A stretch of DNA of 64,000 nucleotides. It comes from Spirosoma sp. KCTC 42546. GTDB taxonomy: Bacteria; Bacteroidota; Bacteroidia; Cytophagales; Spirosomataceae. The notes under the pieces are model-generated. The model did not search any database and was not told where the DNA came from. It saw only the letters and a list, made by a program, of their open reading frames with translations. The stretch spans positions 992,001 through 1,056,000 of the forward strand of contig NZ_CP041360.1 of assembly GCF_006965485.1 (NCBI RefSeq), in the 5' to 3' direction. Below, in pieces: positions 3,477 through 63,740 of the stretch. The translations under genes and the position numbers were made by a program. How positions within the stretch are numbered: position 1 is the stretch's first letter; every line of letters begins with the position of its first letter.

Positions 3477-3555
3477 GGTTTACAGTTTACGGTTTACAGT
3501 TGGCTGACGCAAGAACACAATGCGTCAGCCAACTGTAAACCGTAAACTGTAAACC
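3477..3555. repeat. Perfect 35-bp palindrome between atpA and atpG
   Basis: The arms 3477-3511 and 3521-3555 are exact reverse complements separated by a 9-nt loop. Each arm is itself built from repeated gtttacagtttac-like words. It starts 3 nt after the atpA stop codon and ends 12 nt before the atpG start. In RNA it would form a very stable hairpin inside an expected operon. Confidence 0.9.
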
Positions 3556-16838: not shown

Positions 16839-19232
16839 TTACCTCACCTCCAGTTCATCTATCATCAGTTTAGCAGCTTTGCCGGGGTAACGTAAACCTG
16901 CGGGTACCTGGCCAACGTTTCGGGCGATGATGCGTACATAGCGGGCAGTGGTGGCCTGAAAGTCGAAGGGGAGCCGAACAAAGGCACGCTTACCCCCTTC
17001 GGCAGTATTGGTTTTAGCGGTCAATGCCGGTATGAACGTTTTACCGTCCTCCGAAAGCGAAATCTCGACCTGTTTGGGCAAACAGATGTTCTTCGCGGTG
17101 TATTTCAGAAAGCCAACCCGAACGCTTTCAACTGATTCTGGCTTGCCGAGGTCAATAACCACGTTCAGATCATTTTTAAAGGCTACGACATTGGCAACTT
17201 CATAGCCACCCATGCCGCCTGTTACGCCATCGGTCAGGCTGTAATTGCGATCGGGTCTATCGCTGAGGGGTGCATTGAGGAACGTATAGGACTTACCGGT
17301 TGCCTTCGAAACGATATATTCCTTTTCCACCTTTGCCAGTTGGCTGAGGGGCTTCCCATTGACAAACGTCGCTGTTCGGATGGTTGCTGACTTGCTGAGG
17401 AGGATTGGTTTTTCGTACAAGGGAGATTCCCCGGATGGAATTCGGCCATCCAGCGTGTAGCGAATGTCAGCAGGCTGCTTTCCGGCTAAGAGAGTCACTT
17501 CTACATGACCATCTGGGGTGGATTTGCCTGAGGGAAGGGCGTCGTAGATAGTTCGGGCGAAGTTGACATCCAAGTTCGTTAATCGCTCGAAATGCGTTGT
17601 TAAACGACGGGTAAAATCATCGTAATTTTTCTGGGTTAGCGGGGTCCAGGCAACCTCAGCCATAGCGGCTGCACGGGGCCAGATCATGTATTCCGCCTGC
17701 TCGGGTGTTTGGATATACTCCGTCCAGATGTTACCCTGTGCCCCCAGAATATGGATTGCCTCTGTTGGCGACAGTCCGGCGGGCGTAGGATCATACGAAT
17801 ACACTTTCTCCAGGGGCAAAAAACTACCGAAAGCGGTAGGTTCCTGCGCCGGATCACCCTGATAATGATCGAAATAGCAAAACTGGCCGGGTGTCATAAT
17901 CACATCGTGGTGTTGGCGGGCGGACTGTATGCCTCCTTTAACACTACGCCAGCTCATGACAGTTGCGTTCGGTGATATACCACCTTCCAGAATCTCATCC
18001 CAACCAATAATTCGACGACCTTTTGAGGTCACAAATTTATCGATGCGGGTGATGAAATAGCTCTGAAGTTGATTCTCATTTTTGAGCTTTTCCCGCTTCA
18101 TAAGCTGCTGACAAAACGCACTTTTTCGCCAGGCGGCTTTCGGGCATTCATCTCCTCCGATATGAATGTATTTGCCTGGAAATAAATCCATTACTTCGGT
18201 GAGTACATCCTGTAAAAACGAAAATGTCTTTTCCGTTGGGCAGAACACATCCTCGAACACGCCCCATTTCGTAGCCACCTGATAAGGCCCTGGTGCACAA
18301 GCTAGTTCTGGGTAGGCGGCCAAAGCAGCCAGCGCATGACCAGGCATTTCAATTTCAGGCACTACATTGATATACTTCGTTGCTGCATAGCGAACTACCT
18401 CTCGGATTTCGTCCTGGGTATAAAAACCACCATAGGGCTTCCCGTCAAACTCCTGTGGGTCAAAGTCATCGTAATGGCCAAGTATCGTTTCGCTTCGTCG
18501 GGAACCGATCTGCGTTAGTTTTGGGTACTTTTTGATTTCGATACGCCACCCCTGATCATCCGTCAGATGCCAGTGGAAGTTGTTGAACTTATGGAGCGCC
18601 ATTAGATCCAGATACTTTTTGATAAAGGCTACCGAAAAAAAATGTCGACCAACATCAAAACTCATCCCTCGATACCGGTAGCGAGGTTTGTCCTGAATCC
18701 GGCAGGCGGGAATGGGTAGAGCGTGGCGCAGGGGGCTTGGCGCAGGGACAATTAACGCCCCCCTGCTCCCTGCGCCATGCTCTACGCCAAAAACCACCGG
18801 TGGCAGGAGCTGATACAGCGTTTGAACCGCGTAGAAAAATCCTTTTGGACTGGCGGCTTCAATCGTTACGAGCTGAGGAGTTACGTCGAGGTGATAGCCT
18901 TCGTCGCCCATCGTTGTGTCGCGCAGGGGCAGAAACTGAATTAAGTTTGCGCCTGCATTCTGGCCCGACTGGGGTGTTTTGTCAAGGTTTCGAACAGTAA
19001 GAGTTAAGCCACTGCTGCCACTAATCCGTTGCGTAAACTGCTCGGCAATTGCTTTCACATCTGCCTGCGCAAACGGTACTATAACCGTTGTGCGCTGACT
19101 GACAATGAATTCGCCAGCGCGGGGTTCGAGTTGCGCCGGGCGAGGAATGATTGTATAGCGATCCGTAGATTGGCAAAGGCCGGGTACTAACTGCAAACTG
19201 AGTGCAGTGATGAGCAATAAGCGGGTAAGCAT
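16839..19232 (-). CDS. GH20 beta-N-acetylhexosaminidase with an in-frame palindrome-encoded insert
   Basis: The 797-residue secreted enzyme has a signal peptide, a GH20b N-terminal domain (about 25-145), and the GH20 barrel (about 185-530). The catalytic pair D361-E362 lies in YIHIGGDECPKAAW, and FHWHLTDDQGWRIEI is also present. A chitobiase C-terminal-like segment (about 565-640) and an F5/8 (discoidin)-type domain (about 660-797) follow. It should release terminal GlcNAc or GalNAc from glycans in the periplasm or outside the cell. Residues about 150-173, between GH20b and the barrel, are encoded by a palindromic element (18716-18785) and look foreign to the fold. They lie in a linker, so activity is probably retained. 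Confidence 0.95.
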   Translation of the reverse strand: MLTRLLLITALSLQLVPGLCQSTDRYTIIPRPAQLEPRAGEFIVSQRTTVIVPFAQADVKAIAEQFTQRISGSSGLTLTVRNLDKTPQSGQNAGANLIQFLPLRDTTMGDEGYHLDVTPQLVTIEAASPKGFFYAVQTLYQLLPPVVFGVEHGAGSRGALIVPAPSPLRHALPIPACRIQDKPRYRYRGMSFDVGRHFFSVAFIKKYLDLMALHKFNNFHWHLTDDQGWRIEIKKYPKLTQIGSRRSETILGHYDDFDPQEFDGKPYGGFYTQDEIREVVRYAATKYINVVPEIEMPGHALAALAAYPELACAPGPYQVATKWGVFEDVFCPTEKTFSFLQDVLTEVMDLFPGKYIHIGGDECPKAAWRKSAFCQQLMKREKLKNENQLQSYFITRIDKFVTSKGRRIIGWDEILEGGISPNATVMSWRSVKGGIQSARQHHDVIMTPGQFCYFDHYQGDPAQEPTAFGSFLPLEKVYSYDPTPAGLSPTEAIHILGAQGNIWTEYIQTPEQAEYMIWPRAAAMAEVAWTPLTQKNYDDFTRRLTTHFERLTNLDVNFARTIYDALPSGKSTPDGHVEVTLLAGKQPADIRYTLDGRIPSGESPLYEKPILLSKSATIRTATFVNGKPLSQLAKVEKEYIVSKATGKSYTFLNAPLSDRPDRNYSLTDGVTGGMGGYEVANVVAFKNDLNVVIDLGKPESVESVRVGFLKYTAKNICLPKQVEISLSEDGKTFIPALTAKTNTAEGGKRAFVRLPFDFQATTARYVRIIARNVGQVPAGLRYPGKAAKLMIDELEVR
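18716..18785. repeat. Palindromic element inside the GH20 coding sequence
   Basis: The arms 18716-18733 and 18768-18785 are reverse complements with one mismatch in 18. The interior repeats the word ggcgcaggg. The element is read in frame through the hexosaminidase and contributes about 24 residues rich in Gly, Ala and Pro. Its design matches the intergenic word-palindromes of this window. Confidence 0.75.
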
Positions 19233-44598: not shown

Positions 44599-44615
44599 GG
44601 TAATTGATAATGGGT

Positions 44616-44686
44616 AATGAATAATGTACAATGGATAATGAATAACCTGTTGATGATTATTCATTATCCATTGTACATTATTCATT
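44616..44686. repeat. Perfect 30-bp AT-rich palindrome
   Basis: The arms 44616-44645 and 44657-44686 are exact reverse complements made of aatgaataatgtacaatgga and related words, with an 11-nt loop. It lies in the convergent gap between the GH43-like gene and the efflux operon. Confidence 0.88.
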
Positions 44687-44696
44687 AAACCAATGG

Positions 44697-49342: not shown

Positions 49343-49449
49343 AATGTAAAATGAATAATGTAAAATGAATAATCGGGGCCGCCGTTCGGAATAATGATCT
49401 GATAATGAGACGATTTTCATTATACATTTTTCATTATTCATTATACATT
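49343..49449. repeat. Imperfect AT-rich palindrome between adaptor and RND genes
   Basis: Left words aatgtaaaatgaataatgta pair imperfectly with right words attattcattatacattt, around a GC-rich centre (cggggccgccg). It shares its vocabulary with the palindromes at 44616-44686 and 63590-63740. It lies inside the efflux operon. Confidence 0.75.
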
Positions 49450-63589: not shown

Positions 63590-63740
63590 ATGAATAATGC
63601 ATAATGAATAATTCATAATGTAAAATGTAAAATGAATAATGGGTAAGGGGTTGATTGTTAATAGTTTGCCTGTTGTTTGTTTTGCCGCATGGGCGGCCTC
63701 ATTTACCCATTATTAATTATTCATTTTACACTATTCATTA
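63590..63740. repeat. Imperfect AT-rich palindromic region after fecR of module 3
   Basis: Left words (aatgtaaaatgaataatgggtaa) mirror right words (ttacccattattaattattc, then attttacactattcatt) around a GC-rich centre. It has the same vocabulary as 44616-44686 and 49343-49449. It fills half of the 276-bp gap before the third SusC gene. Confidence 0.75.

Follow-up and report, generated by a model that had tools for sequence, protein, structure and literature searches.

An in-frame heptad-word palindrome in an interdomain linker of a Spirosoma hexosaminidase, and a case for its making in place

How does the reading frame of an enzyme come to hold a long and nearly perfect palindrome? The question is raised by a gene for a beta-N-acetylhexosaminidase of glycoside hydrolase family 20 (GH20) in a stretch of 64,000 nucleotides (nt) from Spirosoma sp. 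KCTC 42546 (contig NZ_CP041360.1, positions 992,001 to 1,056,000), hereafter the window, in which part of an interdomain linker is encoded by an inverted repeat. The original prediction, made from the letters of the window alone, took this repeat for a member of a self-spreading palindrome family, tolerated in the linker in the manner of the palindromic elements of Rickettsia. On balance we favour a different history, in which a palindrome of heptad words in a tolerant interdomain linker would have been made and renewed in place by slippage in 7-nt steps and fold-back copying, and not pasted there as a copy. Labels of the form G### denote genomes and L### fetched loci, G000 being the genome that carries the window (8,664,091 bases). 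The features at issue, with lengths of proteins in amino acids (aa), are these.

16839..19232, minus strand: GH20 beta-N-acetylhexosaminidase gene, 797 aa, with the palindrome inside it (from the open reading frame (ORF), domain matches and PDB 6q63)
18711..18800, minus strand: variable linker from the GH20b domain to the catalytic domain, residues 145-174, 30 aa (17-39 aa in 29 readable orthologues of the genus; a gap in 6q63)
18716..18785, no strand assigned: heptad-word palindrome, residues 150-173, with the G-rich arm first and the C-rich arm second on the coding strand
18716..18736, plus strand: palindrome arm 1, GTAGAGCGTGGCGCAGGGGGC
18765..18785, plus strand: palindrome arm 2, GCTCCCTGCGCCATGCTCTAC

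As an observation, the palindrome is confirmed. The inverted repeat is present as had been claimed, with one mismatch in its outer 18 nt (18716-18733 and 18768-18785), and its full arms measure 21 nt and are 90% complementary; the repeated words remarked upon within it proved to be three occurrences of GGCGCAGGG, a word found four times in the whole window against 0.48 expected. None of 200 dinucleotide shuffles equalled the observed self-complementarity of the linker. The arms are periodic at a lag of 7 (p 0.005), and the whole consists of two arrays of degenerate 7-nt words (class GRGCANG) that face each other as inverted repeats. Its translation in frame between two domains also held, residues 150-173 having PF02838 (26-158) on one side and PF00728 (185-531) on the other, in an ORF that further matches CHB_HEX_C_1 and F5_F8_type_C and whose best solved homologue by sequence is PDB 6q63 (E 1e-174).

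The element as a whole does not recur in its genome. A 101-base query found no second full-length copy in the entire 8.66 Mb, contrary to the expected further copies of the 70-bp element, and the best of 19 other matches spans 27 nt at 93% identity (E 4e-4). The recurring part is the word, and some word matches fall in other inverted arrays, several of them inside genes. Because a second full-length copy is lacking, the GH20 element is not a spreading palindrome of the Rickettsia type. The parallel drawn with those elements stands for their in-frame location in unrelated genes, a trait reported in the available part of PMC10969869 and found here in the GH20 gene and in others. It fails for their many near-alike copies and for a length of ~150 bp with a family-specific conserved peptide, as that partial text gives them: the element here is 70 bp long and has heptad arms, and the peptides of in-frame arrays share only heptad-derived stretches such as EQGAGSR-like ones. 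What survives of the proposed family, tolerated in an interdomain linker, is thus its frame, its place in the linker and a palindrome class with coding and intergenic members, but not the self-spreading copy.

Comparison of the linker among homologues gives a similarly divided answer. GH20 matches occur in 36 of 36 genus genomes at E 0.001, paralogues included, and the orthologous linker, readable in 29, is long (28-39 aa) in 11 and short (17-26 aa) in 18; PDB 6q63 lacks 20 residues at this point. A conserved GH20 feature is thereby ruled out, since 18 of 29 orthologues and 6q63 have shorter linkers, and the anticipated absence of residues ~150-173 elsewhere is borne out as to length. There is no clean insertion, however, in that orthologues without the palindrome carry an unrelated linker of 17-26 aa and not a version of this one from which an insert is simply absent. 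Several sibling species have different heptad palindromes at this GH20 site. In a shuffle analysis of linker palindromicity, which parsed 68 of 71 loci (L049, L122 and L091 were left out), six genus linkers were reached by 0 of 200 shuffles (G000, G006, G032, G003, G007 and G001), all of them in the long group. Paralogue linkers measure 9-10 aa (19 readable of 20 fetched). A tree of the 29 gene sequences with the linker removed unites nine long-linker genomes in one clade (support 0.93) and places G017 and G007, also with long linkers, apart among short-linker relatives; gain or loss of the long linker has therefore probably happened more than once. Two orthologues, L048 (G032) and L050 (G001), are divided between two reading frames, with breaks near residues 250 and 315 respectively, being either pseudogenes or assembly errors.

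The heptad design extends well beyond this gene. A sample of 464 kb of G000 (the window plus 20 stretches of 20 kb) holds 87 palindromes of at least the strength of the GH20 one (ungapped, score at least 15), against none in a control of one shuffle per stretch, and their arm identity is 0.39, 0.36 and 0.42 at lags 7, 14 and 21, the peaks among lags 1-24, compared with about 0.29. Period-7 arrays number 31 (none in the shuffle), other lags giving 0-9 with the exception of 17 at lag 14. Arms are 7-periodic at p 0.02 in 20 of the 87 palindromes, the GH20 one included, where 1.7 would be expected. For these 20, complementarity of the arms is 95.8%, although neighbouring heptads are only 66.9% alike; at the 284 positions where neighbours differ, pairing of the arms persists in 261. 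Since the arms pair even at such places, a palindrome arm looks to have been copied as a whole, irregularities included.

Heptad arrays also lie in frame in other genes of G000. With simple ORFs as gene calls, arrays in 20 fetched loci fell in ORFs of at least 150 aa in nine cases (five near an ORF end, four well inside) and outside such ORFs in 11. The genes of G000 with in-frame arrays are the following.

L074: hybrid sensor kinase, array between HATPase and receiver
L078: MeaB/mutase fusion
L087 22-741: methylmalonyl-CoA mutase-type protein
L013: second methylmalonyl-CoA mutase-type protein
L087 14323-15666: amidohydrolase
L006: Mur ligase-alanine racemase fusion, array inside the racemase domain
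L012: FAD/4Fe-4S (FAD/FeS) oxidoreductase
L003: AMP-binding enzyme
L079: Lnb-type protein, array at the N-terminus
L002: DUF2291 protein, array at the C-terminus

We take the fusion in L078 to be IcmF, the mutase-type protein at L087 22-741 to be MutA, and the amidohydrolase to be dihydroorotase-like; a further ORF, presumably P-type-ATPase-like, has an array at the same place in G000 and G032. By eye, orthologous loops of four proteins (dihydroorotase-like, IcmF, racemase and FAD/FeS) contain different heptad arrays or palindromes, mostly in species with a long GH20 linker, though with exceptions such as G023 for the dihydroorotase-like protein and G027 for the FAD/FeS one; MutA arrays of another word class are seen, also by eye, in G000, G032, G003, G008 and G017. 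The four non-GH20 genes were picked for their heptads in G000, which was therefore left out of the lag-7 comparison, though kept in the loop-correlation and arm tests. With the long group defined by GH20 linker length, lag-7 identity over the four genes is 0.424 in 10 long-linker genomes versus 0.284 in 18 short-linker ones, a difference reached by none of 5000 label permutations, in which genomes related by descent are taken as independent. Lags 5, 6, 8 and 9 give 0.26-0.30 in both groups, and lag 14 is raised (0.384) only in long-linker genomes. Loop lengths go together between genes in the majority of the ten pairs compared (Spearman 0.13 to 0.68, with the dihydroorotase-like/FAD and IcmF/FAD pairs near zero), and so do heptad scores (0.35 to 0.82), again among genomes related by descent.

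Whether such palindromes arrive ready-made or arise where they stand bears directly on how their arms match. Among 43 loop elements from five genes in 11 genomes (the IcmF loops of G008 and G032, which belong to another palindrome family, included), the mean left-right arm score is 12.15 for an arm and its own partner, 9.83 for the same genome and another gene, 9.41 for the same gene in another genome, and 9.22 where both differ. The observed sum was reached in 0 of 5000 shuffles of right arms among genes within a genome and in 0 of 5000 among genomes within genes (by gene, in 9 for GH20 and in 241, 1, 47 and 101 of 5000 for the others), permutations which, like those on word spelling below, take related genomes as independent. 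Because the own-arm score exceeds those for other loci and other genomes, the memory of the locus is small and that from arm to arm strong. This better matching of arms to their own partners points to the making of the GH20 palindrome in place.

On the mechanism that we propose, replication slippage in 7-nt steps would grow and alter the arrays; the strand would fold back and one arm would template the other, so that a whole irregular array might be copied into its inverted partner; and such fold-back copying would keep the arms matched while the words drift. Within genes, a palindrome would survive only if its word were stop-free in all frames and its net length a multiple of three, and the surviving peptide (Gly/Arg/Glu/Gln-rich, then Pro/Ala/Ser/Leu-rich) would be expected in a loop, linker, signal peptide or terminus. 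The two motors, slippage and fold-back synthesis, and the step of selection are what we infer; the period, the pairing, the frame, the recurrence over genes and species, the arm-to-arm matching and the covariation at genome level are observed directly. The findings suggest that a repeat-making process rewrites protein loops in this genus.

The window also has intergenic palindromes of heptads, for which no strand is assigned.

3477..3555: intergenic heptad palindrome, AGTTTAC class, perfect 35/35 arms
44615..44687: intergenic heptad palindrome, TAATGNN class, 31/31 arms
49343..49449: intergenic heptad palindrome, TAATGNN class
63615..63734: intergenic heptad palindrome, TAATGNN class, neighbouring registers detected

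The word-repeat design that the GH20 palindrome was said to have in common with the intergenic ones is indeed shared in kind, as a 7-nt arm period, but the actual words differ from those of the other heptad palindromes of the window. At 3477-3555, G008 has nearly the same AGT-words, and G003, G014 and G006 have differently spelled AGT-heptads. Over orthologous intergenic sites, the position of palindromes is kept more than their sequence (18 of 27 versus 11 of 50 comparisons, as raw counts with ordinary terminators included). The intergenic segment 21378-21508, with no palindrome detected in the window, has long ones of ~8-nt TTGAATGA-type words in G032, G022, G015 and G001. Elsewhere in G000, a tip around GGCTGACGC is common to two AGTTTAC palindromes (L079 17596, L080 18686) and to a related palindrome (L075 12601), which gives the impression of a core set into arms of heptads.

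Several observations weigh against a palindrome made and renewed purely in place. Word spelling is genome-specific (54 arrays, 0 of 10,000 permutations), also in a thinned test of 45 arrays in eight genomes that left out G004, G022, G029 and neighbouring arrays of G000, G001 and G006 (1 of 20,000), although weakly when GH20 and the dihydroorotase-like gene alone are compared (p 0.03). Such a genome dialect is not predicted by local slippage alone and, given this specificity, some genome-wide component behind it is possible. Partial matches elsewhere in the 464-kb sample (at least 70% of the length at 75% identity or more) exist for seven of the 20 heptad palindromes, all TAATGNN- and AGTTTAC-word elements, the GH20 one having no such match. 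The same IcmF linker is home, in G008, G032 and G013, to a different palindrome family, of the CCCCTCTCCC...GGGAGAGGGG type, which lies in frame in G013 (L249) and out of frame in G019 (L253) and G012 (L254), so that insertion into such linkers probably does happen. The GH20 linkers themselves do not divide cleanly: five of the 11 long ones are weakly or not palindromic (G008 1/200 shuffles, G017 5/200, G015 124/200, G035 153/200, G022 178/200), the lowest count among the 18 short ones is 4/200 (G033), one of 19 paralogue linkers (L109, 27 nt) reaches 1/200, and of 20 linkers from other genera G135 reaches 1/200, G077 2/200, G137 4/200 and G052 8/200. Moreover, with one genome compared per species, turnover is read from differences between species rather than from mutation events watched.

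Much of this would be accommodated by a mobile palindromic element, of the Rickettsia-palindrome, miniature inverted-repeat transposable element or REPIN-like kind, that inserts in frame and then rapidly loses its likeness to other copies: genome-specific words at many loci, coding as well as intergenic members, the seven partial matches, the second family in IcmF and the tip around GGCTGACGC all speak for it. We nevertheless consider it unlikely, as the genome contains no other full copy of the GH20 element, arms match their own partners better than they match other loci, the length is not fixed (28-39 aa in the long group), and no match to the Y1/RAYT domain PF01797 was found at E 1e-5 in G006, a strong heptad carrier. 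That domain occurs at the same threshold in 28 of 36 genus genomes, four times in G000; its absence from G006 speaks against the Y1/RAYT transposase as necessary machinery, and the heptad palindromes do not show this feature of REP/REPIN-RAYT systems. The dialect could also reflect a trans-acting, genome-wide writing of words, whereby spellings would be homogenised per genome, seeded at many loci and folded back in place, so that core enzymes (the hexosaminidase, alanine racemase, the dihydroorotase-like protein, acyl-CoA mutases) would have had their loops, linkers and signal peptides rewritten again and again; to this, too, we assign a low probability. Ectopic recombination or gene conversion between heptad arrays, spreading words and leaving palindromes as a side product, is doubtful in a higher degree: the dialect tests favour it, as does the mean of 9.83 for the same genome and another gene (reached by 79 of 5000 label shuffles), but the effect of dialect on arm matching is small beside own-arm matching, and heptad arrays are short for homologous recombination.

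Two further explanations seem to us very improbable. Were an RNA or DNA hairpin in the GH20 message selected and its structure itself kept, strong predicted hairpins in several orthologues and the covariation of arms would follow naturally; yet the 18 short-linkered orthologues, none of them below 4/200, do without it, and the same hairpin class appears between genes as well as in genes that are unrelated. A search of the window for Rfam families gave no match at gathering score, which counts against such a hairpin and rules out a known RNA family. A mere flexible linker rich in Gly and Pro, its palindrome and period owed to codon choice, would suit the position and composition of the segment, but a period of 7 nt is no multiple of a codon, the lags raised among those compared (5-9 and 14) are 7 (0.424) and 14 (0.384) alone, and in long-linker genomes only, and dinucleotide shuffles fail to give the pairing. 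Making in place by slippage and fold-back copying continues to be the history that we favour.

Bacterial heptamer repeats have long been noted and, to our knowledge, have no agreed maker or role. The available parts of PMC4692102 and PMC4679880 describe heptameric repeats, including the short tandemly repeated repetitive (STRR) sequences of Nostoc and other cyanobacteria, GGGAATC of Xanthomonas and TAACTGA of Beggiatoaceae and Bacteroidetes, as mainly intergenic with some intragenic cases, and both the heptameric excess and the idea of slippage set by the polymerase footprint are published there. The GH20 palindrome works like these STRR-type repeats and belongs with them, since both defining features tested were found: tandem degenerate 7-nt units are dispersed in the genome, and at conserved positions relatives differ in the length and sequence of their arrays. 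Inverted pairs, too, sometimes occur among the STRR-type repeats, as far as those partial texts go (PMC4692102, PMC4679880). What sets the present case apart is that complete inverted arrays occupy loops of many enzymes in frame, and that homologous loops of other species carry such arrays again. Elhai and colleagues are said to have reported in 2008 that small dispersed repeats are embedded in heptamer arrays of Nostoc; the AGTTTAC palindromes with their common tip resemble that arrangement, whereas no shared core was seen in the GH20 element.

A hairpin of 7-nt motifs (TDNGATT or NNTGAGT) also forms the P6b stem-loop of the trnL (UAA) group I intron of Nostoc, where, according to the part of PMC4476775 available, the stem stays paired even though lineages differ in repeat number and motif class, much as here; that hairpin belongs to a structural RNA in an intron, however, and ours to a reading frame. 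In Borgs, as the accessible portion of PMC9879509 relates, tandem repeats within ORFs likewise write disordered stretches of protein, and signal-peptide proteins are over-represented among those hit, but the units are divisible by three and nearly all perfect, in contrast to the degenerate, inverted 7-nt units described here. In the literature searched, which left most subscription journals outside its coverage and included some sources only in part, we recognised no description of in-frame, loop-specific, arm-matched heptad palindromes with a genome dialect.

The reading frame serves in this instance as a clean ruler, against which one enzyme loop can be followed through some 20-36 species of a single genus; the turnover of words, the matching of arms and the dialect of each genome can be read from it directly. 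The question of origin, local slippage and fold-back versus spreading, thereby becomes testable with strains of one species, and a possible route from DNA repeats to new protein segments comes into view.

The distribution of the words is uneven. The three-heptad pattern GRGCANGGRGCANGGRGCA is found in 11 of 36 genus genomes (G032 17 times, G000 11, G035 10, G003 9, G006 8, G017 7, G001 6, G005 and G029 2 each, G004 and G022 once each) and a reversed-pattern control in none of the 36; arrays of this type go with a long GH20 linker (8 of 12 versus 3 of 17 at a limit of 26 aa, Fisher p 0.018). In a phylum sample, six of 395 genomes match, namely G000 and five outside the genus with one match each, the latter being dismissed as background, as the reversed control matches nine genomes of the same sample. 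A four-heptad pattern of the GRGCANG class occurs elsewhere in at least 113 stretches. Among the matches listed (80 loci), 35 are cyanobacterial by record title; the first array lies in an ORF of at least 150 aa in four of these 35 and in 16 of the 45 from other groups, and one of the 35, or three of the 80, are palindromic at the threshold used. The word class is common to the cyanobacterial arrays and those of the genus, the words being too short to show homology. A Prevotellaceae metagenome-assembled genome (L396) carries EGQGVGSREQGAGGREQGG, a heptad array, in the reading frame of a presumably agmatine-deiminase-like ORF; judged from this locus, the in-frame phenomenon may reach beyond the genus.

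Some further repeats deserve mention in their own right. TTCATTA-class heptads form N-termini that resemble signal peptides (FIILHSSF-like peptides) at L076 18888-18939 and L079 18518-18564. An insert in an asparaginase-like protein (L079 5613-5651, with orthologues L162-L191) was ruled out as a heptad array, its unit being a 15-nt in-frame AAVDS repeat whose copy number varies by species and which is palindromic in G000. Finally, a sensor-kinase-like ORF at L072 14184-14328 contains inverted GGCCCGGCCTGG-type repeats in frame.

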